Shown: positions 388 to 63,762 of the stretch, piece after piece
Layout of the letters: every line of letters begins with the position of its first letter
How positions within the stretch are numbered: position 1 is the first letter of the stretch
IMG/VR virus record: IMGVR_UViG_3300028025_001913
Span: 1 to 64,000 of that record
Length of the DNA: 64,000 nucleotides
Strand: one strand, 5' to 3'
Source of the DNA: a virus
The notes under the pieces: model-generated
Databases searched by the model: none
Seen by the model: only the letters and a program-made list of their open reading frames with translations
Told to the model about the DNA's origin: nothing
Program-made: the position numbers and the translations under genes

Positions 388-555
388 TTAGATTGATTTA
401 CTACGTTGATATTCGACTATGCTGAAAGCGTTGAAGGCTTCTAACATAGATACTTCCTTTACTACAGGTGCTACTACTTCTTTGGTGCAGGACTTCTGCA
501 CTTGAGGTGCAGGCTGTACTTGTTTGAGTAAAGCGCATTGGCTAGGGTTTAGCAT
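388..555 (-). CDS. Small hypothetical protein (55 aa) carrying a 17-bp palindrome
   Basis: I read this 55-residue frame from the sequence. The ATG at 553-555 has an ideal AAGGAG eight bases upstream and the stop is at 388-390. It overlaps the end of the upstream membrane-protein gene (549-716) by 7 bp, which suggests translational coupling. The protein has no recognised domain. The central part is Pro/Val/Gln-rich and includes V-Q-K-S-C-T, encoded by one of the five GTGCAG-N5-CTGCAC palindromes. Function unknown. Confidence 0.6.
   Translation of the reverse strand: MLNPSQCALLKQVQPAPQVQKSCTKEVVAPVVKEVSMLEAFNAFSIVEYQRSKSI
485..501. repeat. 17-bp palindrome GTGCAG-N5-CTGCAC, copy 1
   Basis: Perfect 6-bp arms around GACTT (plus strand). 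It lies 54-70 nt inside the leftward gene 388-555. It is one of five copies confined to the leftward block near the window edges. It could be a DNA-binding site or an RNA hairpin. Confidence 0.8.
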
Positions 556-716
556 TCGTCTTTCTCCTTCATAAAGAATAGTGATACAAGAGTGCCTGTG
601 CTACATATCAACAGGGCTAGGTGCAACCAACCCCCATCGTTACAGACGTGATACAACGCAAAGCAAAAGCCCATCGTGAATACAATGGCGAACATCAAGG
701 CTTCGTGGTATTTCAT
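549..716 (-). CDS. Small two-helix membrane protein (55 aa)
   Basis: I read this 55-residue frame from the sequence. It starts at the ATG at 714-716 and stops at 549-551, overlapping the next gene's start. Two hydrophobic segments are visible: residues 7-22 (MFAIVFTMGFCFALYH) and about 31-49, joined by a short Cys-Asn-Asp-Gly loop, with a charged C-terminal tail (MKEKDEC). The topology fits a small inner-membrane protein. Phage early regions often carry such proteins for host take-over or superinfection exclusion, but nothing here identifies which. Confidence 0.6.
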   Translation of the reverse strand: MKYHEALMFAIVFTMGFCFALYHVCNDGGWLHLALLICSTGTLVSLFFMKEKDEC

Positions 717-730
717 TGTGCTTCCTTTCT

Positions 731-913
731 TTAGTTAAGATGTGCAGTTGCTAACGCAACGGCTAGGTTTGCCAATAGTGGCTTGATTACTTCGGGTGCA
801 TCTACATACTTCACATCATCTACATAATCCAAGGCTAGAATGATGTGTGCTAACTCCTCCGTTGTTACTTGAAGGTATAACTTCGGTGCTACGGCTTGTG
901 GTTTGTTGCGCAT
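731..913 (-). CDS. Small hypothetical protein (60 aa)
   Basis: A 60-residue acidic, helix-prone protein (TTEELAHIILALDYVDDVKYVDAPEV in pieces) with no recognised family. I chose the ATG at 911-913 because AAAGGAAATATC sits at normal spacing. The frame is open to 928, but that earlier ATG has no ribosome site. A GTGCAG-N5-CTGCAC palindrome lies 30-46 nt upstream of the chosen start, in the leader. It belongs to the leftward early operon with its neighbours at 549-716 and 1024-1449. Confidence 0.6.
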   Translation of the reverse strand: MRNKPQAVAPKLYLQVTTEELAHIILALDYVDDVKYVDAPEVIKPLLANLAVALATAHLN

Positions 914-942
914 GATATTTCCTTTCATTGGTTGATTGTGTG

Positions 943-959
943 GTGCAGAAAACCTGCAC
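943..959. repeat. 17-bp palindrome GTGCAG-N5-CTGCAC, copy 2
   Basis: Arms GTGCAG and CTGCAC around AAAAC (plus strand). It sits in the 110-bp gap between the genes 1024-1449 and 731-913, upstream of the ribosome site of 731-913. A separate near-perfect 12-bp palindrome, ACAACGTGTTGT, lies at 1008-1019 in the same gap. Confidence 0.8.
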
Positions 960-1023
960 TTGACAGAAAAGCGAACAGCGTTGAAGCCTCGCTCTCTGTC
1001 TTGTTGTACAACGTGTTGTCAAA

Positions 1024-1449
1024 TTACTTGGCAAATGCCATCGCAACAGCCTTAAGCACTTGGGCTTTCGTCATGCCCCATGCCTTGATTGCTTTAGCCT
1101 TCTTTTCCACAACATCTACTTGCTTAGACGTTGTGCTACTCGTTGTGCTACTCGTAGGAAACATAGTGCGTAGCATCTCTCTAGCGTTATTCTGCGCCTT
1201 GCCTACTCTGCTAAAGCCAAGTGAGCCTTTGTAGATGCCCTTGGTAATCTTGATAGGCTTAACACCACCTTGCTTGATGCCAACAAGTTTTGCAACCTTA
1301 CTGCGTATATCAAGTTGTGTCTGTACGTCTGCCTTGTTGTACACAGGTATGAGTTTGCTCATTGCGTCTTGCAACTCGATACCCTTTGCAATGTACTGCT
1401 CTAACTTAGTGCAGAAAGTCTGCACCACAACTTTTTGATTCTGATTCAT
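1024..1449 (-). CDS. Basic hypothetical protein (141 aa), first gene of the leftward arm
   Basis: A Lys-rich, probably helical protein of 141 residues with a Thr/Ser-rich linker (SSTTSSTTS) near residue 101 and a C-terminal helix (KAKAIKAWGMTKAQVLKAVAMAFAK in pieces). The charge suggests nucleic-acid binding, but no family was recognised. It has a strong AAGGAG ribosome site, which directly abuts the U-tract of an upstream intrinsic terminator (1462-1491). It is the first gene of the leftward transcript seen here, and its fifth intercistronic palindrome partner is embedded at codons 9-14. Confidence 0.7.
   Translation of the reverse strand: MNQNQKVVVQTFCTKLEQYIAKGIELQDAMSKLIPVYNKADVQTQLDIRSKVAKLVGIKQGGVKPIKITKGIYKGSLGFSRVGKAQNNAREMLRTMFPTSSTTSSTTSKQVDVVEKKAKAIKAWGMTKAQVLKAVAMAFAK
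1409..1425. repeat. 17-bp palindrome GTGCAG-N5-CTGCAC, copy 3
   Basis: Arms GTGCAG and CTGCAC around AAAGT (plus strand). It lies 24-40 nt inside the leftward gene 1024-1449, where it encodes V-Q-T-F-C-T in the same reading phase as the other coding copies. Confidence 0.8.
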
Positions 1450-1461
1450 AATGCTCTCCTT

Positions 1462-1491
1462 AAAAACAAAAAGCCGAGCAAGTGGCTCGGC
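1462..1491 (-). terminator. Attenuator-like intrinsic terminator in the leader of the leftward operon
   Basis: On the minus strand, GCCGAGC (1485-1491) pairs with GCTCGGC (1473-1479) around a 5-nt loop, followed by TTTTTGTTTTT. It sits between the leftward promoter (1531-1557) and the first gene's AAGGAG (1456-1461). An upstream AGCCGA (1498-1503) can pair with TCGGCT (1472-1477) of the terminator, giving a mutually exclusive structure. This geometry suggests attenuation or antitermination. No leftward gene exists upstream whose end it could mark. Confidence 0.65.
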
Positions 1492-1530
1492 AACACGTCG
1501 GCTGATGTGTGCTTCTCAACCGATAACTCT

Positions 1531-1557
1531 ATTATACCAAATGGGGATTCCTGACTA
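1531..1557 (-). promoter_or_regulatory. Leftward sigma-70-type promoter with extended -10
   Basis: On the minus strand the extended -10 is TGGTATAAT (1531-1539), containing a perfect TATAAT. The upstream -35-like TAGTCA lies at 1552-1557 (4/6 matches, short spacer of 15). The predicted start is near 1524, giving a leader of about 75 nt that runs through the 1462-1491 terminator before the first gene. The strong extended -10 may compensate for the weak -35. Confidence 0.55.
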
Positions 1558-1661
1558 GGCTATATTGGATACCTGAAACCCCACGGGGTGGGTATAGACC
1601 TGTTTTGTGTGTGCCGTAGCGTAGACAGTACAACACTGTTCCTGACCCGCAAATTTAAAAA

Positions 1662-1707
1662 ATGTCAAATTTTGTAAAAAAATAGCAGACTCATGTCAAA
1701 CTTTATA
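1662..1707. repeat. Two near-identical 15-bp direct repeats, 31 bp apart
   Basis: ATGTCAAATTTTGTA at 1662-1676 and ATGTCAAACTTTATA at 1693-1707 differ at two positions and are spaced 31 bp, close to three helical turns, so a bound protein would face the same side of the DNA. They lie upstream of the rightward late block, which makes an activator or repressor site plausible. The second copy ends in TTTATAC, a weak -10 candidate. Confidence 0.5.
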
Positions 1708-1718
1708 CACTTCCACCC

Positions 1719-1746
1719 AAAAAAAGTCCCCGGGGTTGCCGGGGAC
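1719..1746 (-). terminator. Strong hairpin with minus-strand U-tract; 5' hairpin of the late leader
   Basis: An 8-bp stem GTCCCCGG / CCGGGGAC (1726-1733 with 1739-1746) and 5-nt loop. On the minus strand it is followed by seven T, so it would stop leftward transcripts coming from the terminase region. On the plus strand it lacks a U-tract and would form a 5' hairpin in the late mRNA leader. Either use is possible. Confidence 0.55.
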
Positions 1747-1795
1747 AATCAATCTAAATCAAGGAACACACCAACCAAACGAAGGAGAAAAGCCA

Positions 1796-1843
1796 GTGTT
1801 GCAATTATTATATAACAAATCTAAAAAATGCGTGATACAATAA
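1796..1843 (+). CDS. Possible 15-codon leader peptide overlapping the terminase start
   Basis: The only good ribosome site before the late operon, AAGGAG (1782-1787), is about 40 nt from the ATG at 1828 but eight bases from a GTG at 1796. That GTG opens a 15-codon frame (VLQLLYNKSKKCVIQ) whose stop (1841-1843) lies just past the ATG of the next gene, in a different frame. The ATG itself has no recognisable ribosome site. Translation of the leader could load or re-initiate ribosomes on the terminase gene. The peptide itself has no known function. Confidence 0.4.
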   Translation: MLQLLYNKSKKCVIQ

Positions 1844-2463
1844 AATTTAATCGTGCCCCCCACGCTACCAAGGAGGACTTGAATTTGTTTTTGGAACACC
1901 TAGTAAATCAGAATGCCGCAGATTTTGTACCAGAACTAGTTTCTGGCGAGGACTTCGTTTCCCTAGATAACCTAAACGCTTCTCAAACCCTCAACGCCCA
2001 GCTAAAGACAAGTGATTGGTTAAAGAGCCTGTCTGAAGATGATGACGATATACTTAATGATGCTCAAGAAAAAAGTGCCACCGACGCATTTAACGCTTTA
2101 GTCACAAACAGCCCCGACGCAAAAAACAAAGTACTAGCCCTAGAAGTGCCGGAAGAGATTCGGTCTATTGTGGGAATGGTGACGGCTTATCAGTGGAAGT
2201 TTGTCGAGCAAGCGCAAGAATTGCGGAGCATGGCGGTGACTAAAATAGTTAAAGATACGGACCACCCAGACGCACGGATTCGGCTAAAAGCCTTGGAGAT
2301 GCTGGGTAAAGTTACTGAGGTAGCCCTGTTTACAGAACGGGTACAAGTTAAGACTGAGGACATAAGCGACGAAGAGCTAGAAAAGCGTATTAAGGAAAAG
2401 CTTGGGCGTTACATGGGCAAGGCAGACGTAGTGGATGTTACGGCGAGCGAAGTAGATGATTGA
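1828..2463 (+). CDS. Terminase small subunit (putative)
   Basis: The 211-aa protein is placed directly before, and overlaps by 8 bp, the large terminase gene. The small subunit recognises phage DNA and feeds it to the motor. The C-terminal third (about residues 145-200) has the arrangement common in phage small terminases: a helical HPDARIRLKALEMLGKV stretch followed by a charged EELEKRIKEKLGR helix. The N-terminal third is acidic with a Ser/Asp-rich patch near residues 68-78. The assignment rests on position and helical character; no DNA-binding motif is obvious. Its ATG lacks a normal ribosome site (see the leader ORF at 1796). Confidence 0.7.
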   Translation: MRDTIKFNRAPHATKEDLNLFLEHLVNQNAADFVPELVSGEDFVSLDNLNASQTLNAQLKTSDWLKSLSEDDDDILNDAQEKSATDAFNALVTNSPDAKNKVLALEVPEEIRSIVGMVTAYQWKFVEQAQELRSMAVTKIVKDTDHPDARIRLKALEMLGKVTEVALFTERVQVKTEDISDEELEKRIKEKLGRYMGKADVVDVTASEVDD

Positions 2464-3988
2464 TATTCTGTCTCCTCAAGAAGCGATGGCTGCTCAACGG
2501 GCGATGGCCCACATGACGAAATTTGAGAAGCTAGCGTTTTTAGAAAATTTAGAGCAGAAAGAAAACAGGGCGCAGCTTAAAAAAGCTAAAAACGACCCGA
2601 TTGAGTTTGCTAAACGGATATACCCCGGGTTCAAAGTGGGACCCCATCATAGGAAACTAGCTAAAATATTTCAAGACGTAGTTGACGGGAACAAAAAACG
2701 GGTGATTATTAATATTGCGCCTCGTATGGGTAAGTCTGAGTTCAGCTCTTATCTGTTCCCTGCTTATTTTCTAGGTAATTACCCTGAGAAAAAGATTATT
2801 ATGGGCACCCACACTGCGGGGCTATCAGAAGATTTCGGTCGGCGAGTCCGGAATCTGATTGAAAGCGAGGAATACCATGACTTATTTCCAGAAACTGTGG
2901 TTGCGGATGACCAAAAAGCAGCGGGTAAGTGGTCGACCGGCGCTGGTGGACAGTATTATGCTGCTGGTGTTGGCGGTGCTCTTGCAGGTAGGGGTGCTGA
3001 TTTGTTTGTTATTGATGACCCACATTCTGAGCAAGATGTAAAGTCTAATTCACGTCTAGCGTTTGATACAGCTTGGTCTTGGTTTCAGACCGGACCACTA
3101 CAACGGCTTATGCCGGGTGGGGCGATTATCGTGATAATGACCAGATGGTCGTTGCTAGACTTGACAGGGCGCTTACTGGACTACCAGATTAAGAATCCGA
3201 ACACAATTCCGTGGGAGTTGGTTGAGTTACCAGCCATATTGCACGAAGATACGGATAAAGAGAAGTCGCTTTGGCCTGAGCAGTGGCCCCTTGAGGCGCT
3301 AAAGAACACTAAAGCCAGTATTGACCCAAGATATTGGAACGCCCAGTATATGCAGAACCCCACATCCGACATGTCGGCAGTTATTGGGCGTAAAGATTGG
3401 AAAATATGGGAGCAAGATGACCCACCTACAGTAGATTACATTATCCAGTCTTGGGATACGGCGTTTGAAACTAGTAATACAGCTGACTACTCCGCATGTA
3501 CCACATGGGGGGTTTGGTATAACAACGAGGACAAGGGTAGCCCTAACTTAATACTGCTAGATGCGTTTAAAGACAGGATGACATTCCCAGAATTAAAGGC
3601 TACGGCGCTAAAACACTATAAAGAATGGAACCCCGATGCGTTTATAGTTGAGAAAAAAGCGGCGGGGGCACCACTAATTCAAGAACTGCGGCGGGTGGGC
3701 ATTCCTGTACAAGAATTCTCCCCAAGCCGAGGTAACGACAAAATGGTCAGGCTTAACGCTGTAGCAGATTTATTTACCAGCGGTAAAGTATGGGCACCAG
3801 ATACAAGGTGGGCTAGAGAAGTAGTAGAAGAAGTGGCTAGTTTTCCTGTAGGCGAGAACGACGACTATGTGGATACGGTGTCCCAAGCACTATTGCGGTA
3901 TAGACAGGGTGGGTTTATTAGCCTTGACTCAGATGAAAAAGACGACGACCTCTTGTACAAGTACCGCCGTAAAGCGGCTTACTATTAA
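2456..3988 (+). CDS. terL: Terminase large subunit (packaging ATPase-nuclease)
   Basis: The 510-aa motor protein couples ATP hydrolysis to DNA packaging at the portal and cuts the concatemer. Visible ATPase signatures are a Walker A variant APRMGKS (residues 88-94), Walker B LFVIDD with acidic pair D187/D188, and the coupling motif TRW (229-231). The RNase-H-like nuclease half shows D333 in SWDTAF, E398 in FIVEKK, and D469/D472 in NDDYVDTV, the expected acidic triad. Length is normal for the family. It overlaps the small-subunit gene by 8 bp (ATG within its last codons) and precedes the portal region, the classical order. Confidence 0.95.
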   Translation: MIDILSPQEAMAAQRAMAHMTKFEKLAFLENLEQKENRAQLKKAKNDPIEFAKRIYPGFKVGPHHRKLAKIFQDVVDGNKKRVIINIAPRMGKSEFSSYLFPAYFLGNYPEKKIIMGTHTAGLSEDFGRRVRNLIESEEYHDLFPETVVADDQKAAGKWSTGAGGQYYAAGVGGALAGRGADLFVIDDPHSEQDVKSNSRLAFDTAWSWFQTGPLQRLMPGGAIIVIMTRWSLLDLTGRLLDYQIKNPNTIPWELVELPAILHEDTDKEKSLWPEQWPLEALKNTKASIDPRYWNAQYMQNPTSDMSAVIGRKDWKIWEQDDPPTVDYIIQSWDTAFETSNTADYSACTTWGVWYNNEDKGSPNLILLDAFKDRMTFPELKATALKHYKEWNPDAFIVEKKAAGAPLIQELRRVGIPVQEFSPSRGNDKMVRLNAVADLFTSGKVWAPDTRWAREVVEEVASFPVGENDDYVDTVSQALLRYRQGGFISLDSDEKDDDLLYKYRRKAAYY

Positions 3989-3995
3989 GGAAAAT

Positions 3996-4280
3996 ATGAC
4001 TACGCAGAAATACATGGGCAAAGGAGTTTTGTTAGAAAGATTAACAGAACAGATGCGTACTCAGAAAAATCCACCTAGTGACCCGGAAGCAGCGGCACGG
4101 GCAGTGTTAATATCAAGGGGTCATATGAAAGAAGATGGCTCATTTACAGAAGGCGGTGAGGTGCGTAATAATATGACTGCCGAAGAGCGAGCTAAAGATA
4201 GAGCGGCTAAACGTACGGGTAAACCGGCTAATGCGTTTAATTACAACCCAAAAACAAACATGGTTTTAAGGAAAAGATAA
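3996..4280 (+). CDS. Hypothetical protein between terminase and portal (94 aa)
   Basis: A 94-residue charged protein with no recognised family. I chose the ATG at 3996, which follows AAGGAAAAT; the upstream part of the open frame overlaps the terminase gene and is unlikely to be coding. It is hydrophilic, with a Glu/Arg/Lys-rich central helix (MTAEERAKDRAAKRTGK) and an Asn-rich tail. The stop overlaps the portal ATG (TAATG), so the two are translationally coupled. Position suggests a head-assembly accessory, without direct proof. Confidence 0.7.
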   Translation: MTTQKYMGKGVLLERLTEQMRTQKNPPSDPEAAARAVLISRGHMKEDGSFTEGGEVRNNMTAEERAKDRAAKRTGKPANAFNYNPKTNMVLRKR

Positions 4281-6736
4281 TGAGCATAGAAAAAAGTTTA
4301 TACGAAGCCCCACAAGGGTTAAGCGCTTTAGCCGAAGAAGAACCGGATATTGAGATTGAAATTGAAGACCCTGAGTCAGTAAATATTAAAATGGGGGATG
4401 TCGAGATAGAGATTGACCCCGACGCAGAAGACGAAGAAAACTTTAACCAAAACCTAGTTGAGGTAATGGACGCTGGGGACTTGCAGTTACTTGCAGGAGA
4501 ATTGACAGAAGACATTGACAACGACCTTGCATCCCGTAAAGACTGGGAGAAAATGTATAAGGACGGGATTACGCTTCTTGGTTTAAAGTTTGAAGAACGC
4601 ACGGAACCTTGGAGTGGGGCATGTGGTGTATTCCATCCCATGATTACCGAAGCCGTTGTGCGGTTTCAGTCCGACACCATTATGGAGACGTTTCCAGCCA
4701 AAGGACCCGCAAGAACGCAGATTATCGGGAAAGAGACTCCTGAAAAGAAAGAAGCGGCTATTCGTGTACAAGATGACATGAACTATCAGCTTACTGAAAA
4801 GATGCCTGAGTACAGACTTGAGCATGAAAAGATGCTGTGGAACTTGCCAAGTGCGGGCTCTGCTTTTAAAAAGGTGTATTTTGACCCAAGTTTAGATAGG
4901 CAAGTAGCGGTATTTATACCCGCAGAAGACGTAATTTTGCCGTATGGGGCTAGTGATATTGAGACTTGTTCACGGATTACGCACAGAATGCGTAAGAATA
5001 AGAACGAATTGATTAAGTTAATGAACGCTGGGTTCTACGCAGAAACCGACTTAGAAGATGAGCCAGATACATTTTTAAACGAAATTCAGCAGAAAAAAGA
5101 CAAAGAAACGGGTTTTTCAGCTTCTTTTGACGACCGCTATGAGTTATATGAAATTCATGCCGATTTAGATTTGCCGGGGTTTGAGGATGTAGATGAAGAC
5201 GGCGAACCAACAGGTATTGCGTTACCGTATGTAGTAACAATGCTACGTGGCACCGAAGAAATTATGGCTATTCGCCGTAACTGGAATGAAGACGATGAGC
5301 TAAAACTTAAAAGGCAACATTTTGTCCATTACCAGTACATTCCGGGATATGGTTCGTATGGCTTTGGGCTATTTCATTTAATAGGTGGATACGCTAAGAG
5401 TGCTACCAGTATTATGCGCCAATTGGTGGACGCCGGAACCTTATCAAACCTACCCGGCGGGCTTAAAGCTAGGGGCTTACGAATTAAGGGCGATGATACG
5501 CCAATAGCTCCGGGAGAGTTCCGTGATGTGGACTTAGGCTCTGGTAATATAAGAGATAACATATTACCTTTACCTTATAAAGAACCGTCAGTAGTTTTAT
5601 CTGGGTTAATGGATAAGATTGTTGAAGAGGGACGCAGATTTGCCGCTACTTCAGATATGAAGGTTGCGGACATGTCAAATCAAGCGCCAGTGGGTACTAC
5701 TCTGGCCATTTTGGAGCGAACTCTCAAGGTAATGTCCGCTGTTCAGGCCCGTGTGCACTACACAATGAAGCAGGAATTGCAGTTATTAGCTGCAATTATT
5801 AGGGATTACACAGACCCAGATTACACATACGAGCCAGAAGAAGGTCGGGCAAGTGCTAAGAAATCTGACTACAGCATGGTCGAAGTTATTCCTGTTAGTG
5901 ACCCTAATGCTGCTACGCTTTCACAAAGAGTTGTACAGTACCAAGCGGTTATTCAGTTGGCACAGATGGCACCACAGATTTATAACCTGCCGGTGCTACA
6001 TAGACAGATGCTAGACGTCCTTGGTATTAAGCATGCAGATAAGCTTGTGCCATTGGAAGAAGATCAGAAACCAACTGACCCAGTAACAGAGAACATGAAT
6101 GCGCTTAAGGGTAAACCCTTAAAAGCGTTTATTTACCAAGACCATGAATCACACATTAAGGTTCACCAGTCTGCTATGACGGACCCTATCGTACAGCAAC
6201 TCATTGGGCAGAATCCTCAAGCTCCTGTAATTATGGCGGCTATGCAGTCGCACATAGCTGAACACGTTGGGTATGCATACAGACAGAAGATTGAGTTGGC
6301 TCTCGGTGTTGCGTTGCCAAACCCAGAAGATGAAATGCCGGAAGACATGGAAAAAGAAATCAGTCGACTTATGGCTGAAGCTGCTCCGCAAGTCCTTGCG
6401 CAGAGTAAAGCAATGGTTGCGCAACAGCAAGCACAGCAGAATGCACAAGACCCGATACTACAGTTGCAGATGCAAGAGTTGCAGATTAAACAAAAAGAAG
6501 TTGAATTAAAAGAGAAGAAAGTTATGGCAGACGCAGCGGCTAAAGCTGACGAGCTTGAGATTCAGAAACAGAAAATTGAGTCAACAGAAAAAATAGCTGG
6601 TATGAATGCGACGCTAAAAGATTTACAGGCTAAGCAAGCGTTACAAGCTAGACAAGAAGAATCAGGAGCTAAGTTAGGTTTAGATTTAGCACATAAACGT
6701 GCGCTTTTACAACAACCTAAGAAAACGGAGAAATAA
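4280..6736 (+). CDS. Portal protein
   Basis: The 818-aa protein follows terminase and precedes scaffold and capsid genes, the usual place of the portal, the dodecameric ring at one capsid vertex that serves as packaging channel. The length and a long acidic N-terminal segment (residues 14-55, rich in Glu/Asp) followed by a TEPWSGACGVFHPMITEAVV-like region match large portals of podovirus-type phages. The last 130 residues are a Gln/Lys/Glu-rich coiled-coil helix (LQMQELQIKQKEVELKEKK), resembling the barrel extension of P22-like portals. The stop overlaps the next ATG (TAATG). Confidence 0.85.
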   Translation: MSIEKSLYEAPQGLSALAEEEPDIEIEIEDPESVNIKMGDVEIEIDPDAEDEENFNQNLVEVMDAGDLQLLAGELTEDIDNDLASRKDWEKMYKDGITLLGLKFEERTEPWSGACGVFHPMITEAVVRFQSDTIMETFPAKGPARTQIIGKETPEKKEAAIRVQDDMNYQLTEKMPEYRLEHEKMLWNLPSAGSAFKKVYFDPSLDRQVAVFIPAEDVILPYGASDIETCSRITHRMRKNKNELIKLMNAGFYAETDLEDEPDTFLNEIQQKKDKETGFSASFDDRYELYEIHADLDLPGFEDVDEDGEPTGIALPYVVTMLRGTEEIMAIRRNWNEDDELKLKRQHFVHYQYIPGYGSYGFGLFHLIGGYAKSATSIMRQLVDAGTLSNLPGGLKARGLRIKGDDTPIAPGEFRDVDLGSGNIRDNILPLPYKEPSVVLSGLMDKIVEEGRRFAATSDMKVADMSNQAPVGTTLAILERTLKVMSAVQARVHYTMKQELQLLAAIIRDYTDPDYTYEPEEGRASAKKSDYSMVEVIPVSDPNAATLSQRVVQYQAVIQLAQMAPQIYNLPVLHRQMLDVLGIKHADKLVPLEEDQKPTDPVTENMNALKGKPLKAFIYQDHESHIKVHQSAMTDPIVQQLIGQNPQAPVIMAAMQSHIAEHVGYAYRQKIELALGVALPNPEDEMPEDMEKEISRLMAEAAPQVLAQSKAMVAQQQAQQNAQDPILQLQMQELQIKQKEVELKEKKVMADAAAKADELEIQKQKIESTEKIAGMNATLKDLQAKQALQARQEESGAKLGLDLAHKRALLQQPKKTEK

Positions 6737-6942
6737 TGGATTTAGCAACACTTAATATTATGGAGTCGTTACGGGATAAGCTCCGTACAGACATGAATAA
6801 TTTCACTGACGATTTGGCTAATGGTCAGTGCACTAGCTTTGAGCAGTACAAAGAACTTTGCGGGGTGATTCGAGGTCTAGCCTTCGCAGAGCGTCATTTA
6901 ATAGACCTCGCTGAAAACCTAGAAAGAGCCGACAATGAGTGA
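6736..6942 (+). CDS. Hypothetical protein after portal (68 aa)
   Basis: A 68-residue acidic, all-helical protein (MESLRDKLRTDMNNFTDDLANG), not recognised. The ATG overlaps the portal stop, and its own 3' end overlaps the GroES-like gene by 8 bp, so it is coupled on both sides. Small helical proteins at this position are common in related phages and are probably morphogenesis helpers; that is inference from context only. Confidence 0.65.
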   Translation: MDLATLNIMESLRDKLRTDMNNFTDDLANGQCTSFEQYKELCGVIRGLAFAERHLIDLAENLERADNE

Positions 6943-7366
6943 AATACTTGATTTACCGGAAAAAGAATTGGTCTTGCCGCCGGGAGTAAAACCCCCAAAA
7001 ATAGACCATGAGTATGAAAATGCTGAACAGAAAGCCCAGTCAATACCTGACCCTAAAGGTTGGCGTGTTCTTTGCGCTTTGGTTGAAGCAGGCGATACGT
7101 TTGATAGTGGTATTTTAAAGTCTGAGCAAACAGTCAAGATTGAGGAAATTACTTCCCCTGTTTTGTTTGTTGTAAAGATGGGACCAGATGCCTATAACGA
7201 TACGGATAAGTTTCCTGATGGTCCGTGGTGTAAGGTTGGCGACTTTGTAATAACACGCCCATATACCGGAACACGCATCATGATTCACGGTAAGGAGTTT
7301 CGCTTGATTAACGACGATCAAGTTGAAGCAACAGTTGAAGACCCACGTGGCATTAGACGAGCTTAA
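6935..7366 (+). CDS. GroES-like co-chaperonin
   Basis: Residues from about 40 to 135 of this 143-aa protein match the GroES (Cpn10) fold order: GWRVLCALVEAGDTFDSGI at the first strand and mobile-loop region, then SPVLFVVKMGPDAY, a KVGDFVITRPYTGT strand pair, then GKEFRLINDDQVEATV at the C-terminus. GroES caps GroEL and helps fold capsid proteins; T4 gp31 is the classic phage replacement. The unusual 35-residue N-terminal extension is Pro/Glu-rich. It lies between portal and scaffold genes, which fits a role in folding the capsid or portal. Confidence 0.78.
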   Translation: MSEILDLPEKELVLPPGVKPPKIDHEYENAEQKAQSIPDPKGWRVLCALVEAGDTFDSGILKSEQTVKIEEITSPVLFVVKMGPDAYNDTDKFPDGPWCKVGDFVITRPYTGTRIMIHGKEFRLINDDQVEATVEDPRGIRRA

Positions 7367-7378
7367 TAGGAGAAACAT

Positions 7379-8341
7379 ATGGCAGAGAACGACGAATTTA
7401 AATTTCCTCATGAACTTGAGGAAGATGACAACGTAAATATCAATATTTCCGATGAAACGGACGTTGAGATTGAAATTGAAGACGATACCCCTGAAAGAGA
7501 TAGGAGAGCGGTACCCCTTGATCGTGAGGTAGAAGACCCTACTGATGAAGAGATTGAGTCTTACGGCAATAAAGCACAAAGTCGTATTAAACAATTAACT
7601 CATGCACGGCACGATGAAAGACGTGCTAAAGAGGCAATTTCTCGTGAAAAGGCAGAGCTAGAGAACATGACTCGGGCTATCATGGAGGAAAACCGTAGGC
7701 TTAAGGAGTATGTTAATTCTGGGCAAGCTAGTTATGCTGAGAATTTACAGGCTAGAGCTGAAGCAGATATGGAGATGGCACGCCGTAAATACAAGGAAGC
7801 ACAGGAAAGTTATGATTCCGACGCTATGCTTGATGCGCAAGAAAATTTGACAGAAGCTAAGATGAAACTCGAAGCTGCGAAAAATTTTAAGCCTACCCCT
7901 TTACAAACCGAAGAAAATGCTGTACAAATACAATCATCGGCACCGGAAGCACCACGACTCGACGAAAAAACCTTGCGCTGGCAAGCAAAAAACCAGTGGT
8001 TTGGGTCACCGGGATACGAAGAAGTTACGGCCTTTGCACTAGGGCTGCACCAAAAACTAGTTGCCACCGGGGTAGACCCCCGCTCTGATGGATATTTCGA
8101 CCAAGTAGATGGTCGCTTAAAGCAGGTGTTTCCTGAGATGTTTGGAAACTCTGATAGAAGTACTAAACCCGCTGAGTCAGGCAAAAAACCGGCAACGGTT
8201 GTTGCATCGGCTTCTCGATCTTCGGGGGCTAAAAAAGTGATTAAATTAACAGCTACGCAAGCACGATTAGCGGAGAAGTATGGTTTAACACACAGACAAT
8301 ATGCAGATGAAGTACTTAAATTGGAGAGAGCAAATGGCTAA
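7379..8341 (+). CDS. Capsid scaffold protein (putative)
   Basis: The 320-aa protein has a strongly acidic N-terminus (residues 1-55), a long charged coiled coil (about 60-175, rich in Glu/Arg/Lys/Ala) and a basic C-terminal helix (KKVIKLTATQARLAEKYGLTHRQY). Acidic plus coiled-coil plus basic C-terminus upstream of the capsid gene is the hallmark of phage scaffolding proteins, which drive procapsid assembly and bind the coat through the basic tail. The ribosome site AGGAGAAACAT precedes the ATG. There is no protease domain. Sequence similarity was not tested. Confidence 0.75.
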   Translation: MAENDEFKFPHELEEDDNVNINISDETDVEIEIEDDTPERDRRAVPLDREVEDPTDEEIESYGNKAQSRIKQLTHARHDERRAKEAISREKAELENMTRAIMEENRRLKEYVNSGQASYAENLQARAEADMEMARRKYKEAQESYDSDAMLDAQENLTEAKMKLEAAKNFKPTPLQTEENAVQIQSSAPEAPRLDEKTLRWQAKNQWFGSPGYEEVTAFALGLHQKLVATGVDPRSDGYFDQVDGRLKQVFPEMFGNSDRSTKPAESGKKPATVVASASRSSGAKKVIKLTATQARLAEKYGLTHRQYADEVLKLERANG

Positions 8342-8786
8342 TACTAGAACACCTCGGGAGTTAGAAACCCGCGAAAAAACACAAACTCGTTATGTTTATA
8401 AACCAGCGAGTACTTTACCGGAACCGGCACCGGACCCAGATTATGACTTCCATTGGATGGCTATAACTGTTAACGGGCAGGAGAATTCATCTAACATATC
8501 GCAAAAGCGACGTGATGGTTGGGTACCAGTAAAGGCAGTAGATTACCCTGAATTAGAAATAGACCCTAACAAGAATGGCGAAGTTGAAAATGGTGGTTTG
8601 CTTTTATGCAAAATACCAAAAGAAATGAACCAAGCTCGTAGAGAATATTTTGAGAAAAAGGCACAAAACCAGATGGATTCTGTGGACAATAGCTTTTTGA
8701 AACAGAGTAACCCAGATATGCCTTTGTTTGCTGAGCGTAAAAGCACAACAACTAGAGGACGTGGTTTTGGTGGTGGTGAAAAATGA
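8334..8786 (+). CDS. Hypothetical head-region protein (150 aa)
   Basis: I chose the ATG at 8334, after GGAGAG, rather than the earlier in-frame 8301 start, which would overlap the scaffold gene by 41 bp. The 150-residue protein is polar and basic. It has a DPDYDFHWMAITVNGQENSS stretch that looks like an entry into a compact domain, and a Gly/Arg-rich tail (TTRGRGFGGGEK). No family is recognised. It is coupled to the scaffold gene by an 8-bp overlap and may be a minor head component. Confidence 0.65.
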   Translation: MANTRTPRELETREKTQTRYVYKPASTLPEPAPDPDYDFHWMAITVNGQENSSNISQKRRDGWVPVKAVDYPELEIDPNKNGEVENGGLLLCKIPKEMNQARREYFEKKAQNQMDSVDNSFLKQSNPDMPLFAERKSTTTRGRGFGGGEK

Positions 8787-8811
8787 TTTTTAACTTTTAA
8801 TGGAGATTTAA

Positions 8812-54827: not shown

Positions 54828-55008
54828 AGCGTTTCCTTATATTGTCAATGTGTTCTAAACACATAATGATTTTGCCAATCTGTTCCTCTAACATAGTCGT
54901 GTCAGCAACAGCGTTAGCTTTCACAGCCAAGATAACCTCAGCTTCTAGGTTAGACAAAGCCGCATTTTCATGCATCATAAATAATAATTCCGCATCACTG
55001 ATTGACAT
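54805..55008 (-). CDS. Small helical protein (67 aa)
   Basis: 67 residues, all helical, acidic to basic (SDAELLFMMHENAALSNLEAE, IGKIIMCLEHIDNIRKRYDP). Unknown. It lies between two DNA-related genes with overlaps on both sides. Confidence 0.55.
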   Translation of the reverse strand: MSISDAELLFMMHENAALSNLEAEVILAVKANAVADTTMLEEQIGKIIMCLEHIDNIRKRYDPRSKS

Positions 55009-56731: not shown

Positions 56732-57940
56732 TTAGTTTGAATAAATACGTACTGCCTTACCTTGTGGTGGTACGAAGTGGTCGTTGTCTACTACACCCCA
56801 TAACGCAGGCACTTCGACTACTGCGTTGTCACCATCAAGATACCCATCAGTCAACCATATGACACCTTTCGGTTGATACTTCTTCTCCCGAATGTATTGC
56901 ACAACGCACTCAGGAGACGTGCCACCCCCACCGCTAGGCTTGAGGAGTGACGCAATGTTTGCGAACTCATGTGGTTTGAAGTATTGCTCGCCACATACTG
57001 AGCTATCCCACCATATCAAGCGGACACCATCAGGGTTTACGTTCTGTGCGATGCGTGCTATCTCACCGAACACAGTAGGATAGATACCCATCATTGAACC
57101 TGACGTATCGCATGCCACAATCAACTCGCCTGTTGACTCCGAGAAGTGTGACGGCATGACAATGCCTAATGGTAGTAAGCGTTTGTTAGGTGGTGCAAAG
57201 CGAGAGTAGTCGTCGCCCTCACATAGCGCAGTAATCCACTCAGTCATATGCTCACGCCAGTTGGTGTCACGCTTCTGTGTTGCCCTGTCAAGCGGATTGT
57301 TTGCTGACTTGTTGCCTGCTATCTTGTCGGCAAGAAGCTTACCCTGACGTATAGCGTCGTCAATCTGTCTGCCTAACTCGTTGCCCTCTTGCTCGCTTAG
57401 CTTGTCACCGAACACGTGCTTGTCTAACGGCTCGCCACCCTCGCCACCACTCTGTAAGATATACGACTGAACAGGAACTTTTGTAGCGTTGCGTAGCAAG
57501 TCCTGTAACACCTCGATGAATGACCAACCCTTGTACTTGATGTTGTATAAAGGCTTAGGCTCAGTAGTGAACTCGATGAAGGTATGCGTTGGGTCAATCT
57601 CTTGTATCGTGCCGTTGACTACAAAGTCCATCGCAATACCTGTCAACTCAGGATGTTTCTTATCTACCTCAGCATAGATAACGCAATGGTGCAACGCCTT
57701 GTGCAACGCTTCATGTGCTACAACAAAGCGTAACTGCTTACGAGTAAGCGTGTTGACAAACTCATTGCTATAGATAACGTCACGTCCGTTGGTGCAAGCT
57801 GTACCAACAGAGTCGTCAAACTTGACTGCACCTACATACACTACACCTGATAACCCTGCGAACAATGCGTTGTTGCTCAGGTCTACGTGAACGGCAACCA
57901 CCTTATCGTGTGCCGATAATTTCTCCCATGTCTTTGACAT
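56732..57940 (-). CDS. VWA-like protein with metallopeptidase domain (402 aa)
   Basis: The N-terminal 120 residues hold an HExxH zincin motif HEALH (H76-H80, in FVVAHEALHKALHH), and the C-terminal half a VWA domain with the MIDAS start VACDTSGSM (about 272-280). This order is that of DUF2201-type proteins. In MoxR/VWA systems the ATPase remodels a target presented by the VWA partner. A protease domain suggests it can also cut it. The start follows ATATG after the AAA gene with 8 bp between. Confidence 0.78.
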   Translation of the reverse strand: MSKTWEKLSAHDKVVAVHVDLSNNALFAGLSGVVYVGAVKFDDSVGTACTNGRDVIYSNEFVNTLTRKQLRFVVAHEALHKALHHCVIYAEVDKKHPELTGIAMDFVVNGTIQEIDPTHTFIEFTTEPKPLYNIKYKGWSFIEVLQDLLRNATKVPVQSYILQSGGEGGEPLDKHVFGDKLSEQEGNELGRQIDDAIRQGKLLADKIAGNKSANNPLDRATQKRDTNWREHMTEWITALCEGDDYSRFAPPNKRLLPLGIVMPSHFSESTGELIVACDTSGSMMGIYPTVFGEIARIAQNVNPDGVRLIWWDSSVCGEQYFKPHEFANIASLLKPSGGGGTSPECVVQYIREKKYQPKGVIWLTDGYLDGDNAVVEVPALWGVVDNDHFVPPQGKAVRIYSN

Positions 57941-57948: not shown

Positions 57949-59064
57949 TTATTTAGTTGTGAAGTAAATCTTGTTGTCGTTGAGTAAGCCTTGGAACGGC
58001 TTGAGTGTAATGAACAACGTAGCCCTTGATGACTCGGCTATGTTGTGGCAGAACATACTCTGTAACTCACGACGATTGCGTAATACATACTCAGTCGCCG
58101 CCTCTGCTTCGTCCCTATCGTTAGCCTGTGTAATACACTTGAGCACAGTAATAATCTGTGCAACAGGGTTAGTAGGGATAGGACAAGTGCTAGGGCTAGC
58201 GACAATCTTAGAGAACGATGGTGTCTCATCACCGAAGCGAATGTATGCACCGAGTATCTCTGCCCCTGCCCGACCAATCGTACCCTCTAAGCAAGCGTGT
58301 AGGGTATCGGCATCCATGTACTCACGCTCAGATACGATGTCGCTTGCTGAGTGTAAAGAACGTGGGCTGATGTAAGCTGACTGCGCTAGCTTGGGGTTGA
58401 AGATAACATCGTTGTGCTTGTCCTGTGGTGTGCCTGCATACTTGCCACCTACCTCGTAGTCAAGGAATGAGTCGAACCATTGTGGATTCTCTTCTGTGCA
58501 AGCAAGGATAATAGGGTCAATGCCATTGTCGATACCCCATTGATACCACTCTTGTTGTGTAGGCTTGCGCATGTACAAGAACACTAGCCTGTTGCGTAAG
58601 TGCGCCTGTATGCTATCGCCTAACCCCTCGGTCGCTAGGTTAGTAGCACAGAACACAACGCTACCCTCCGTCATCTCATAGCTACCAACACGTTGCTCGT
58701 ATACGATGGGTGCTAGCACGTCCTTGATGTACTGCTTAGCCTTGGCTATCTCATCTAAGAATACTAGCGATGGTCTAGAACCATTGACACCCTTCTGATT
58801 GACCTTGCTCACACCGAACCGCTCGTTAGGTAACTCACGTGACACGCCTGCGTCTCGGTCGATATCAGGCATCCATACAGAACCATCGGACAACTGCGTA
58901 CAGTCAAGCTTGACTGATACATGGTTAGCGAAGTGTGGGTCACGCTCTAGTGTGTGGAAGATGCCCGTCTTACCAACGCCATTCTCACCACAGATAACGA
59001 TAGTACGCTTGTGACCAATAGTCTTAACAGCGTTTGCAATTCTTGAAGCATTTAATAATCTCAT
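57949..59064 (-). CDS. MoxR/CobS-like AAA+ ATPase (371 aa)
   Basis: AAA+ P-loop GENGVGKT (26-33), Walker B VFLDEIAKA (D104, E105), and sensor 1 VFCATN (N142). The C-terminal half holds a MoxR-type lid. It would form a hexamer and, with the VWA-metallopeptidase and DUF3150-like proteins, remodel a protein complex. A promoter with an inverted repeat lies in front (59113-59140). Confidence 0.85.
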   Translation of the reverse strand: MRLLNASRIANAVKTIGHKRTIVICGENGVGKTGIFHTLERDPHFANHVSVKLDCTQLSDGSVWMPDIDRDAGVSRELPNERFGVSKVNQKGVNGSRPSLVFLDEIAKAKQYIKDVLAPIVYEQRVGSYEMTEGSVVFCATNLATEGLGDSIQAHLRNRLVFLYMRKPTQQEWYQWGIDNGIDPIILACTEENPQWFDSFLDYEVGGKYAGTPQDKHNDVIFNPKLAQSAYISPRSLHSASDIVSEREYMDADTLHACLEGTIGRAGAEILGAYIRFGDETPSFSKIVASPSTCPIPTNPVAQIITVLKCITQANDRDEAEAATEYVLRNRRELQSMFCHNIAESSRATLFITLKPFQGLLNDNKIYFTTK

Positions 59065-60515: not shown

Positions 60516-60983
60516 TTAATCAAATGATATTTTAATGTTCTCAAACTTCTCTTCTACTTGCTCACGCACCATGTCGTTGATGTCAACGTGGTCGCTCAGT
60601 TGAAACTCGTAGCTGAAGTAGTTCTCAACTATGCTACTAACTTCATCGCTGACAGCATCTTTGATGGCATCTTCAAAGTCCACACCCTCTACTGCCTTGT
60701 TAACCTTTTCGGTAAACCAACTACCCTGTTGCAATACAGTTGTAACGCAGTCTTGCAGGGATTGTTGCTCAGCTAGGGAATTCCCTTGGGCTTGCTTGAT
60801 GACCGAAGTAAGCAGTTGTAGTTGGCTACAGATTGTATTGATGATGCCCTCGATGCTGACCTCGGGTTGCGTGGTTGTGGTGCAGACTTCCTGCACGTGG
60901 GTGTTGAGTAGTCGTTGCATGGCTTCTTCCTCTTCGTTAGTTACAGGCATTGTATTAATTTCTTGTGAAGTTAGTGTGTTCAT
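60516..60983 (-). CDS. Acidic coiled-coil protein (155 aa)
   Basis: 155 residues, acidic, with helical segments (EEEEAMQRLLNTHVQEV, VDFEDAIKDAVSDEVSSIVEN, MVREQVEEKFENIK). One GTGCAG-N5-CTGCAC palindrome sits at codons 30-35 and encodes V-Q-E-V-C-T. ATGA overlap with the upstream membrane-protein gene. Function unknown. Confidence 0.6.
   Translation of the reverse strand: MNTLTSQEINTMPVTNEEEEAMQRLLNTHVQEVCTTTTQPEVSIEGIINTICSQLQLLTSVIKQAQGNSLAEQQSLQDCVTTVLQQGSWFTEKVNKAVEGVDFEDAIKDAVSDEVSSIVENYFSYEFQLSDHVDINDMVREQVEEKFENIKISFD
60880..60896. repeat. 17-bp palindrome GTGCAG-N5-CTGCAC, copy 4
   Basis: Arms around ACTTC (plus strand). It lies 87-103 nt inside the leftward gene 60516-60983 and keeps the same reading phase (V-Q-x-x-C-T) as copies 1 and 3. 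Confidence 0.8.
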
Positions 60984-61201: not shown

Positions 61202-62223
61202 TTTGCTACTCCTTTCTTATCTTCTAACCAAGGGAATGACTCACGTGCTTTGGCAAAGTCTGACATCACACGCACGAACCAAGACTCATCTATGTAGTCG
61301 TCCTTGAGCAGATAAGTAATCTCGAAGAACGAGTCAAGCCCGAACTTGTTGACGAACTCCCCTGCCTGACGTCTACTCATGTTGCCTGCCTTCTCATACC
61401 CATCGAGACCTAACTCGACAAGCGCATCGTCTATATCTAACTCAGTATCTACGATGTCATCCACCCACTTGGTGTCGTCCCACTCAGAACCATAGCCATG
61501 CGTGTGGTATGGATAGTTGTTATAGTTGCCGTATGTGCTATACGAACTGCCTGCCATAGGTGCTGTGTATGTATACGGCTCAGGCTCAGCGTTGACTTGG
61601 CTACGTGCTAGCTTCATGTCAAGCATGTCCTTTGCCTTGGTAGTCGTCAGGGTAGGTGCTGACCATGCGTAGGTGTTGGACATCCAACGTCCACCCCAAT
61701 ACACACCTTGACTCTGATTGACCACAGTCTTGCGCCCTAGGTTATCCATGATGACGAAGCGATTGTTGCCGATGTGACCACTGATAAGATACTCGAACGA
61801 TGTGGTAAACGCATAGTTAGGATTCTTGGCAAGCATAGGGCGCAGTATGTCATTGATGTAGTGCCATGTATCTGATTTGGTTACATCTGCCTTGTTGCCT
61901 GTGCTGAGCACACCATTGTGCATCATCCACATATCAACGCCATGCTCTTCCTTGTTGAGTATCTCGTATGGGTGGCAGTTGAGCATATCAATATCACCAT
62001 GCGTCTTCATGCGCAAGTGAAAGGCACAGTCCTTGCCGTCGATGTGCTTGGTGTAGAACTCGTACAACTCTGCATCAGTCTTGGGCAATGCCTTCTCTAC
62101 ATACAGCGTGCCATCTACTGCATACATAACACCGATACCATCAGCGTTGTAGTCATAGAAGTCTGACAACCAATGCTCAGGTAGTGACGGGGATGATACG
62201 GATTGGGTAACTAATAAACACAT
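61198..62223 (-). CDS. Class II glutamine amidotransferase (341 aa)
   Basis: Ntn-hydrolase fold. Cys2 after the initiator Met is the nucleophile. GATase-II motifs follow: FHLRMKTHG (R71, H75), NCHPYEI, and MMHNGVL with N103/G104. It releases ammonia or transfers an amide from glutamine. The C-terminal third (about 215-341) has no known domain and is Tyr/Trp/Asn-rich. It directly follows the amidoligase gene (30 bp), a pairing known from phages and bacteria in which the two act on one substrate. Confidence 0.8.
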   Translation of the reverse strand: MCLLVTQSVSSPSLPEHWLSDFYDYNADGIGVMYAVDGTLYVEKALPKTDAELYEFYTKHIDGKDCAFHLRMKTHGDIDMLNCHPYEILNKEEHGVDMWMMHNGVLSTGNKADVTKSDTWHYINDILRPMLAKNPNYAFTTSFEYLISGHIGNNRFVIMDNLGRKTVVNQSQGVYWGGRWMSNTYAWSAPTLTTTKAKDMLDMKLARSQVNAEPEPYTYTAPMAGSSYSTYGNYNNYPYHTHGYGSEWDDTKWVDDIVDTELDIDDALVELGLDGYEKAGNMSRRQAGEFVNKFGLDSFFEITYLLKDDYIDESWFVRVMSDFAKARESFPWLEDKKGVAK

Positions 62224-62253
62224 ATGTAATTCTCCTTGATTTGATTGGGTTGG

Positions 62254-63723
62254 TTAGGCTACACGCTTCTCGATGGGTTGGGATGGTGGGTTGTCCATGC
62301 GTGGGTTAGGCTTGACCAAGGCAAGCGTAGGTAGTGAGTACCCCTTCTCACGTAGGTACTGCCGTAAGAACTTGGTATCCTTACGCTGATTGGGCTGGCA
62401 TATGAACTTGATGAAGTTCTCAGTCGTCAACTCGGTAACCCCTGCATCACGACAGAAGAACCACGTTGCGTAGGTAAACTCTAAGCACGCCATCTGTGTC
62501 TCGTAGCGTAGCGTGCCTTTGAATATCCTAAACTCTACAGTCGCAGGGTTGTTGAAGTTAACTGCCTCAGTCCTATCAGGGTTGAGCCGTCGCAGTTGCT
62601 CGTTCTTATTGTTGTAACCCTTAGCGTTCTTGAGCCAATCATACGATGCCTTCTTGTTGTGTATCTTGGCATAGTGGTGGTCGCTACGTCTTGCGATGTC
62701 CCTGATTAACTTCTGATTGTTGCTGTCGTTGATGAAGAAGACTATCTTGCACCCATGAAACATCGTCATGTCACCCTTGGATATGTGAACGTGTAGCCCA
62801 CAAGTCCTAGTATCGTGTGACTTGACGTAACGCCAAGGCTTCTTGAAGAACTGTAGCATCTGAGCATGAACGTCTAGCCCTGTCCAACCTGTAACCATCT
62901 CGAAGCCGTAGTCAAGAGAGCCGTCGTCCTCGATGTGTATGTACTGATGCTCAGTACCATCGTCATGCGTGTAGTGCTTGAGTTGACCATACAACTCCTC
63001 GGCTTTGTCATACCTACTAACCTCATCCCTGTTGACCTCGACCTCTAACTCCATGCCTAGGAATATCTTGGGGTTGCGCTCATCGAAGGCTGATGGGATA
63101 TGTTGCAGTATGTCCTTGCCCGAGTGTCGTCCACCTATCGGATAACCATCGTCGTCATCATCGTTATTGCGCTCGTTCTCTTCTTCCTCTTCGTAATAGT
63201 CTTCCTCTGTTACGTATGTGCCACGTCCCTCAGACCAACGATAGTTATTGTCACGACAACTATCGCATACCCAATAGTCGCCATCGTAGCACCAACTACC
63301 ATTATCTACGTGGTCAATGTGATTGCAATCCTCGCAACACTTGGCGTCTTCGTTAAACTTATCCTCTATGACATCAGCCCAATCGGTGCGCATACCATCA
63401 CGCACGAAACGAAACTGCTCTGAGTTAACTAACGAATACATACTATCCACGTCTTCGTCTCTGATATACGAACGTACCATGACACCAAAGGCTGATACTA
63501 GGCGCATCTTCTCAGCAAGAGTCGCTTGGTCAAGCCTATGAGTCGCACTAAACCTATTGCTACGAAAGCGATAGTAGAAGTCGTTGTTGCTTCGAATGGT
63601 CTCACGACACCGAGACATCAAGTCCTCCCTAGTGAAGTAACTAGGGTCTCTTTCAATACGTGCAACGCCTTCGTTGAAGGACACAAGCACAGGCACTAAT
63701 GTTGTAGCAGTTGATATGGGCAT
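62254..63723 (-). CDS. ATP-grasp-like amidoligase (COOH-NH2 ligase) (489 aa)
   Basis: The pattern of Amidoligase_2: GMELEVE (about 222-228), DDGSLDYGFEMVTG, CGLHVHIS (about 306-313) and TVEFRIFKGT (about 392). The N-terminal third carries a zinc ribbon CCEDCNH...CYDGDYWVCDSC (about 128-160). The family forms amide or peptide bonds between carboxyl and amino groups. The ATG 63721-63723 has GAGGAAAAG upstream; a GTG frame extends to 63762 into the 17-bp palindrome. Substrate unknown: cell-wall peptide, host protein or metabolite. Confidence 0.8.
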   Translation of the reverse strand: MPISTATTLVPVLVSFNEGVARIERDPSYFTREDLMSRCRETIRSNNDFYYRFRSNRFSATHRLDQATLAEKMRLVSAFGVMVRSYIRDEDVDSMYSLVNSEQFRFVRDGMRTDWADVIEDKFNEDAKCCEDCNHIDHVDNGSWCYDGDYWVCDSCRDNNYRWSEGRGTYVTEEDYYEEEEENERNNDDDDDGYPIGGRHSGKDILQHIPSAFDERNPKIFLGMELEVEVNRDEVSRYDKAEELYGQLKHYTHDDGTEHQYIHIEDDGSLDYGFEMVTGWTGLDVHAQMLQFFKKPWRYVKSHDTRTCGLHVHISKGDMTMFHGCKIVFFINDSNNQKLIRDIARRSDHHYAKIHNKKASYDWLKNAKGYNNKNEQLRRLNPDRTEAVNFNNPATVEFRIFKGTLRYETQMACLEFTYATWFFCRDAGVTELTTENFIKFICQPNQRKDTKFLRQYLREKGYSLPTLALVKPNPRMDNPPSQPIEKRVA

Positions 63724-63745
63724 AACTTTTCCTCGTTTGATTGAT

Positions 63746-63762
63746 GTGCAGGTTTTCTGCAC
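63746..63762. repeat. 17-bp palindrome GTGCAG-N5-CTGCAC, copy 5
   Basis: Arms around GTTTT (plus strand). It lies 23-39 nt upstream of the amidoligase start, in the leader. The TTGTGATAC direct repeats (63780-63788, 63792-63800) are just upstream. Confidence 0.8.

Follow-up and report, generated by a model that had tools for sequence, protein, structure and literature searches.

The virus record IMGVR_UViG_3300028025_001913 of IMG/VR (G000; 64,604 bases) was analysed over its positions 1 to 64,000, a stretch 604 bases shorter than the record and referred to below as the window. Its leftward early operon contains a repeated palindrome, GTGCAG-N5-CTGCAC, and the first gene of that operon (1024-1449) encodes a small protein whose family occupies the same locus in relatives that carry repeated palindromes with other arms. 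From comparison of these genomes, we consider it probable that the palindromes are double-stranded DNA operators for this protein, which looks like a previously unnamed putative DNA-binding protein and would act as a dimeric, self-regulated repressor of the early operon.

A palindrome repeated in the leftward early operon

The five copies reported in the initial annotation of the window, each with perfect arms and a 5-nt spacer, were recovered at the same coordinates. They are listed here with a sixth copy and the genes around them.

1024..1449, minus strand: proposed cognate regulator, 141 amino acids, first gene of the leftward early operon
1409..1425: candidate operator copy 1, GTGCAG-AAAGT-CTGCAC, within codons 9-14 of the regulator gene
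943..959: candidate operator copy 2, separating the regulator gene from gene 731-928, whose first ATG lies 14 nt downstream
731..928, minus strand: small gene downstream of copy 2; a second ATG at 913 may be its start
485..501: candidate operator copy 3, within gene 388-555; the same position in the relative L088 reads TTTGGGACACCTGTCCCAAA
388..555, minus strand: small gene with a candidate operator in its coding sequence
Record 64366-64382, beyond the window: candidate operator copy 4
63746..63762: candidate operator copy 5, followed 22 nt downstream by the start codon (ATG, 63723) of the amidoligase-like gene
62254..63723, minus strand: amidoligase-like gene downstream of copy 5 (PF12224, 24.9 bits, cut-off 22)
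60880..60896: candidate operator copy 6, within gene 60516-60983; unchanged in L088, whose five other sites have different arms
60516..60983, minus strand: early gene with a candidate operator in its coding sequence

Five perfect copies had been judged too many for chance, and we confirmed this: with the GTGCAG and CTGCAC arms held and the spacer free from 0 to 15, five were found against 0.12 expected, a count reached in none of 100 shuffles. The motif arose once in total in 200 order-3 Markov surrogates of the record, and in 40 surrogates no class of palindrome with 6-bp arms (spacer 0-8) exceeded two copies. Near matches are not enriched; the window holds none with one mismatch, one with two (8034) and twelve with three, and the 18 matches with up to three mismatches fall below the chance expectation of 25.7. 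No perfect copy was found in the late block on scanning the window, as the initial annotation had stated, and a scan of the whole record, which it had proposed, added the sixth copy, still in the early cluster. Since the alignment with L088 continues over both contig ends, leaving a gap of 4 nt, these ends are adjacent in the operon and the copies form one 5.2-kb cluster, at +33, +499, +957, +1680, +2300 and +5166 nt from the start of gene 1024-1449; none of the six lies beyond the initial 5.2 kb of the leftward early operon. In each of them the spacer begins with a purine and ends with a pyrimidine (R-N3-Y). The phase common to the coding copies, V-Q-x-x-C-T, is likewise real, and we read it as the operator seen as amino acids in one frame, but the copy at 63746, previously assigned to the same phase in an extended amidoligase frame, is most likely non-coding, since a Shine-Dalgarno (SD)-like GAGGAAA and the ATG at 63723 come after it.

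Palindrome arms and the regulator family among relatives

The exact GTGCAG motif was present in only 4 of the 86 further relatives first checked (2 of 50 and 2 of 36), as a single copy in three of the four, and this rarity at first looked like a refutation. De novo palindrome scans then revealed other repeats, including GGACAG-N4-CTGTCC, GGATAG-N4, GGGGAG-N4, GGAGAG-N4, GGGACA-N2, GGGAACA-N2, TGTGTG-N4, GTGGAG-N5 and more, and conservation of the GTGCAG motif itself was rejected. The initial annotation had named relatives with conserved genes and divergent arms as evidence that would count against its reading; taken literally, such relatives are what was found, whereas the layout of the sites and the match of their arms to gene 1024-1449 are conserved.

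In all, 111 related records were scanned, comprising 31 joined or single records and 80 loci kept out of at least 599 terminase loci. A repeated palindrome was present in 78 and an operator was defined in 65, with arms picked by eye from the palindrome scans; these account for 290 sites and 28 arm/spacer definitions, among which one palindrome appears in two registers on three occasions. Thirteen records with a repeat were dropped, as near copies or parts of the same contig (G028, L217, L231, L232, L234, L243, L257, L267), for having two copies at 6-bp arms (L268, L275, L277, L283), or as distant (G082). No repeat was judged convincing in G006, G010, G053, G062, G064, G065, G073, G083 and 25 loci. 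Despite this, L229, L252 and L274 match the regulator: L274 has four copies of TTCAC-N-GTGAA with 5-bp arms, the contig of L252 has one GGACAG copy (L323), and the part of L229 that was read has no repeated palindrome.

Change of arms within a conserved setting is evident in close relatives. In L088/G051, with flanks about 85-93% identical to the window, the places of copies 3, 4 and 5 hold TTTGGGACACSTGTCCCAAA, while the homologue of 60516-60983 retains GTGCAG. Terminases identical at 100% (rounded) occur in L220, L221 and L222, yet their operators are GTGCAG, GGAGAG and GGGAAC, representing three unrelated regulator/operator pairs. Single palindromes of a foreign class also occur inside clusters; all 15 of those found lie within 3 kb of their own cluster, in stretches that account for 42% of the sequence searched, and they include two register variants and three sites in L282. 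More left-over sites of another class were seen in L308, L315, L316, L318, L326 and L332. The L282 locus (1-9881) contains two classes together, GGGAAC-N1 (four) and GGGACA-N3 (three), and may have been caught in mid-switch or carry two regulators.

A member of the regulator family is found at the same locus in all 65 records with a defined operator, in 60 by iterative hidden Markov model search and in five by position, where an open reading frame (ORF) of similar size and motifs stands at the same place. The protein consists of a variable N-terminal domain (about residues 1-98) and an exchangeable C-terminal tail (about 108-141); tails, of about 35 residues, are of few kinds (by eye) and shuffled among N-domains. 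The window and G007 regulators, for example, have a tail in common and N-domains of different type, and their BLAST identity of 76%, which was first counted against the regulator given their different operators, resides mainly in the tail. In profile comparison by hhalign, type A has weak links with the L266-type (E 1.2e-5, probability 81) and with type B (E 1.5e-4, probability 51) and is linked to type C through the tail only, and no link appeared between L266-type and type B, so that a single fold for all N-domains is not established. The regulator gave no Pfam or PHROG match at usable scores, and neither the window regulator nor a type B regulator had a tblastn match among phage records; megablast of window positions 1-24000 against phage records, and Rfam and tRNA scans, yielded nothing useful.

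Similarity of regulators follows similarity of operators. Across 57 non-redundant records, a Mantel comparison gave a rho of 0.31, exceeding all of 2000 permutations (maximum 0.09), and 0.29 remained after removing terminase similarity in a partial test. When nine other families were compared on these genomes (terminase, 1828-2463, 4280-6736, 63816-64436, 144-368, 60516-60983, DNA polymerase and both helix-turn-helix (HTH) proteins), each tracked the operator less well than the N-domain did; control genes labelled portal, small terminase and zinc finger were so named by guesswork, based on position or cysteine pairs. Among pairs with terminases at least 88% identical, the median N-domain score was 0.46 where the operator definition was the same (n=62) and 0.05 where it differed (n=121).

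Two proteins named earlier as possible binders were rejected by the same comparison, the regulator tracking the operator better than both. G002, G003 and G004 encode homologues of the HTH protein (44704-44970) that are 100% identical, yet two different operators occur among these three genomes. G004 and G007 differ in operator but share the presumed recognition helix of the winged-helix protein (54995-55270), a protein that was not found in G018, G022, G029 or G035; over 13 genomes its rho was 0.41, whereas the regulator reached 0.76 over the same set. Apart from this, the winged-helix protein of the window (minus strand) is MarR-like, more divergent than many of its neighbours, and devoid of the D/R-rich stretch in the wing of most relatives.

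The covariation can be narrowed to single residues of the N-domain, located in the window regulator as follows.

1162..1200, minus strand: codons for residues 84-96, the last predicted N-domain helix, in which residue 87 (N) covaries with base 4 of the operator

For type B, 21 non-redundant type B and related proteins were compared, 3 of 24 having been dropped as near copies. Residue 90 (G021 numbering) was the best of 127 columns for arm base 4, with an adjusted mutual information of 0.81 (next column 0.53) that was reached in none of 300 label shuffles; K accompanies C in 10 of 10 proteins, M accompanies T in 3 of 3, and S, N or D accompanies G in 8 of 8. Three pairs of similar proteins that differ by C or T at base 4 all differ by K or M at residue 90. 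In type A, residue 87 is N in all eight GTGCAG proteins and E in all four GTGGAG proteins; it falls within the last helix of the predicted N-domain, and an approximate profile alignment puts type B residue 90 one position away from it, within that helix. When tried on 18 further loci, the residue rule was right in the 17 with a repeated palindrome, and the eighteenth has one copy of the predicted class. The regulators of 12 of these loci are at least 99% identical to known ones and those of L306, L326 and L327 are 89-95% identical, so that the exercise is mostly a consistency check; L330, L331 and L332, at 62-63%, are clearly new.

Probable DNA operators and their proposed role

In the ten records longer than 58 kb with a defined operator, treated as circular, all perfect sites lie at -67 to +5905 nt of the regulator ORF start. 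Among the 65 records, a site falls within -200 to +300 of the regulator start in 55 (random placement gave a mean of 11.6 and a maximum of 23) and within 150 nt 3' of the regulator stop in 49; an ATG preceded by an SD sequence follows within 70 nt of 140 of the 290 sites, a count made with no control. At nine type B sites, from related genomes and thus not independent, a -10-like hexamer (TATACT or TATAAT) ends exactly 8 nt before the palindrome, which would then lie at about +1 of the presumed regulator promoter. Many other copies are away from promoters. The leader of the window has two further elements.

1531..1536, minus strand: TATAAT, -10-like box of the putative regulator and early operon promoter, recognised by eye; it has no -35 match and was unlisted by the promoter scan
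1462..1491, minus strand: intrinsic-terminator-like hairpin (1491-1473) with a T run, located after the -10 box and before the SD sequence

Terminator-like structures of this kind occur near the regulator start in 45 of the 65 records, compared with 25 of 650 random segments, and in two of the 45 the stem is the operator itself; the leader hairpin is suggestive of attenuation or of an antitermination step. Upstream of the TATAAT box, the window has another leftward terminator-like hairpin at 1746-1726 (minus strand), with 8 pairs, 7 of them GC, and a T-rich tail.

A set of 271 distinct sites served to assess whether the palindromes act as DNA or as RNA. Read on the transcript strand, the outermost pair of the spacer is G-U in 60 and A-C in 66, and spacers occur in both orientations, as AAAC 21 times and GTTT 19 times in the GGACAG and GGATAG classes, and as AAGTT and AACTT five times each. 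Arms with one mismatch near the clusters comprise 12 A-C, 5 G-U and 3 other, several being inherited copies. In some classes the dyad extends to the centre (GGAGAGAATTCTCTCC; GGGAAC-N-GTTCCC), where RNA would be unable to pair. Since spacers occur both ways and the mismatches have no G-U bias, action as DNA is favoured.

Of the three candidates put forward in the initial annotation, the operator of a dimeric regulator is the one that gained support, and it can be given a provisional mechanism. The regulator would bind as a dimer that spans about one helical turn, with one N-domain on each arm. It would repress its own promoter if an operator overlaps +1, as at the nine type B sites; at operators further down, RNA polymerase might be blocked or slowed as by a roadblock, and the early operon would be shut off once the regulator had accumulated. 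A regulator able to recognise the operators of a superinfecting relative would also silence that relative, and such silencing would favour new specificities and could account for rapid, coordinated swapping.

Several observations weigh against operators for a repressor encoded by 1024-1449, and have to be set beside those that support them. The overall correlation is modest (rho 0.31-0.34), the shuffles ignore phylogeny, and 11 pairs with the same operator definition have dissimilar regulators. Two tail columns follow the three C/T pairs, which were picked by eye and not from a tree, as well as residue 90 does. In type A, 21 of 131 columns separate the GTGCAG and GTGGAG classes, residue 15 as cleanly as residue 87, and several of the separating columns are in or beside the codons that hold the operator. 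The residue rule met mostly near copies in the further loci. AlphaFold models are middling (mean pLDDT 74 and 72), showing three helices, two short strands and a fourth helix, then a tail of two helices whose placement is poor, and fold searches gave no convincing match: the best Foldseek E values were 3.4 and 0.43 in PDB and 0.62 in BFVD, and the best VIA Z scores 6.7 and 6.3, searches that do not imply a novel fold. On the sense strand, one orientation predominates in some of the spacer classes (GATT 16 and AATC 4 in GGACAG and GGATAG; GTTT 7 and AAAC 1 in GGGGAG; AAAAC 4 and GTTTT 1 in GTGCAG), with no lean overall. In the window itself no copy overlaps the promoter, the nearest being about 105 nt 3' of the -10 box, so that simple promoter occlusion does not fit there. 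Finally, two isolates described below have palindromes in late genes too.

The alternative that fares best, which we regard as unlikely but serious, retains the same protein-DNA pair and makes it an activator, an antiterminator or an organiser of early-region DNA, acting for example past the leader terminator or as a replication mark. Terminator-like hairpins are indeed far more frequent near the regulator start than in random segments, and many copies stand away from promoters; the nine type B palindromes, on the other hand, occupy a position 8 nt 3' of the -10 box that would block initiation, and repressors typically regulate themselves through sites that surround their own gene. It is appreciably less probable that the sites are operators of some other phage or host protein, the regulator merely hitch-hiking by linkage. 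Although recombination could carry both, given that the regulator adjoins the sites, the residue-base rules hold across divergent backgrounds and in L330-L332, other early-cluster families correlate less, and a host protein would leave unexplained why near-identical phages have different operators.

Still more doubtful is the second of the original candidates, in which the palindromes are RNA hairpins in early transcripts, bound by the regulator in the manner of boxB/nut or for translational control. Against this stand the balance of other spacers, the parity of G-U and A-C in the outermost pair, the preponderance of A-C among mismatched arms and the symmetry that reaches the centre in some classes; these outweigh the capacity of the arms to form stems of 6-7 bp with loops of 3-5 nt, the spacers that lean one way (GATT, GTTT, AAAAC), and the position of the regulator as first gene of a leftward operon behind a terminator, like lambda N. 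The third candidate, a mobile or recombinogenic short palindrome spreading by copying and having no cognate protein, could explain foreign-class palindromes inside clusters but is scarcely credible, because in L088 the arms at three homologous sites were replaced, not added, between flanks that stay about 85-93% identical, and the change is matched to the type and residue of one protein.

Comparison with known systems and wider implications

Operators of the lambda type are 17-bp dyads bound by dimeric repressors, few in number and placed at divergent promoters. The sites described here resemble them in a dyad of nearly 17 bp with half-site centres about one helical turn apart, and differ in their number and placement and in a binder with no recognised HTH. 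The lambda N/nut system acts through RNA, nut being an RNA element; it is similar in having a first leftward gene, a site near the promoter, an adjacent terminator and phage-specific pairs of site and protein, and unlike in that the evidence here favours DNA and shows no strand-specific loop overall.

In Cluster A mycobacteriophages such as L5 and Bxb1, as far as described in the portion of the source consulted, many repressor sites exist, some at the early promoter and most elsewhere, and the stoperator motifs are genome-specific, varying with the repressor (PMC6550527). According to the same portion, their sites are asymmetric and mostly oriented with transcription, the binder is an HTH immunity repressor, and lysogens are formed (PMC6550527). 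By analogy, the present system appears to work most like these stoperators, with sites dispersed through the early operon and mostly off promoters, and with a repressor role that we infer. The sites here are palindromes, however, with spacers in both orientations; the binder has no recognised domain, and no integrase, resolvase or ParB domain was found in ten records. We do not class the system as a stoperator member, because asymmetric oriented sites and recognised lysogeny functions are both lacking. No earlier description of it was recognised in the literature, judged by titles and the beginnings of abstracts.

Among isolates, seven records read in part and eight searched with the regulator profile, a palindrome in clearly more than three copies was found in two of the seven, and the profile matched one. 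RHph_TM3_14A (L295) has 15 copies of GTTACC-N6-GGTAAC in 50 kb, across early and late genes. Pag-Yong1 (L300, OL906435), a Planktothrix phage from culture, has 16 copies of GGTTCA-N3-TGAACC in the 41 kb read, and the C-terminal tail of its first leftward gene product (UMO76074.1) matches the regulator profile (E 2e-4). The likeness of Pag-Yong1 thus lies in its dispersed palindromes and in the tail match of its first-gene protein; it differs in having sites in late genes too and a profile match limited to the tail. Separately, OQ594354, OL906435 and PP438419 are assigned to different cyanobacterial hosts, yet agree in length (65,014) and encode an identical regulator-like protein; they are probably one phage, and their host labels call for a check.

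As to lifestyle, and for ParB also as the centromere protein of ParABS or N15-type dispersed centromeres, tyrosine integrase (PF00589), resolvase (PF00239) and ParB (PF02195) domains were found in none of ten records of 58-68 kb, with controls positive in 14/14, 10/14 and 10/14, respectively; the search covered these three families, other partition, recombinase and centromere-binding families lying outside it. Terminase relatives were absent from a species-genome collection (34 pattern matches, none related), in a scan that reaches close relatives only. HTVC027P, with a terminase 52% identical, is termed obligately lytic in the part of the source consulted (PMC12753301). Its lifestyle lends weak support to the phages studied here being lytic, since the part of HTVC027P that was read, like that of HTVC023P, has neither repeat nor regulator. 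If these phages are lytic, fast switching of pairs among near-identical phages suggests selection during coinfection.

On this basis a further proposal can be made, possible but decidedly tentative: that strictly lytic phages use the system for recognition of self and non-self, one DNA-binding scaffold occurring with about two dozen operator sequences, with regulator and operator swapped as a unit among near-identical phages and operators then replaced singly along the early operon. Coinfecting relatives of the same type would then silence one another and rare types would win, amounting to superinfection immunity without lysogeny, with a readable code from residue to base. Regulator/operator pairs are expected to change slowly, because all sites must change together; here, terminases identical after rounding accompany unrelated operators, and single left-over sites of another class persist, a natural series that could show the rewiring of a whole regulon. 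The same series offers about 25 operator sequences matched to a family of small putative DNA-binding proteins, and it brings the question of exclusion among lytic phages within reach of tests that use short synthetic genes and operators.

Other genes of the window merit brief mention. A 2615-residue protein (33693-41540, plus strand) has an LPD38 domain near its C-terminus (PF18857, E 2.6e-29). A VWA/metallopeptidase-like protein (DUF2201) adjoins an AAA-like ATPase at 56732-57940 and 57949-59064 (minus strand), and VWA/metallopeptidase and AAA-type names are annotated in Pag-Yong1 and RHph_TM3_14A too. The gene at 8812-9630 (plus strand) is 33-49% identical in most relatives, its neighbours being mostly 56-97% identical, and 91% identical in G051.

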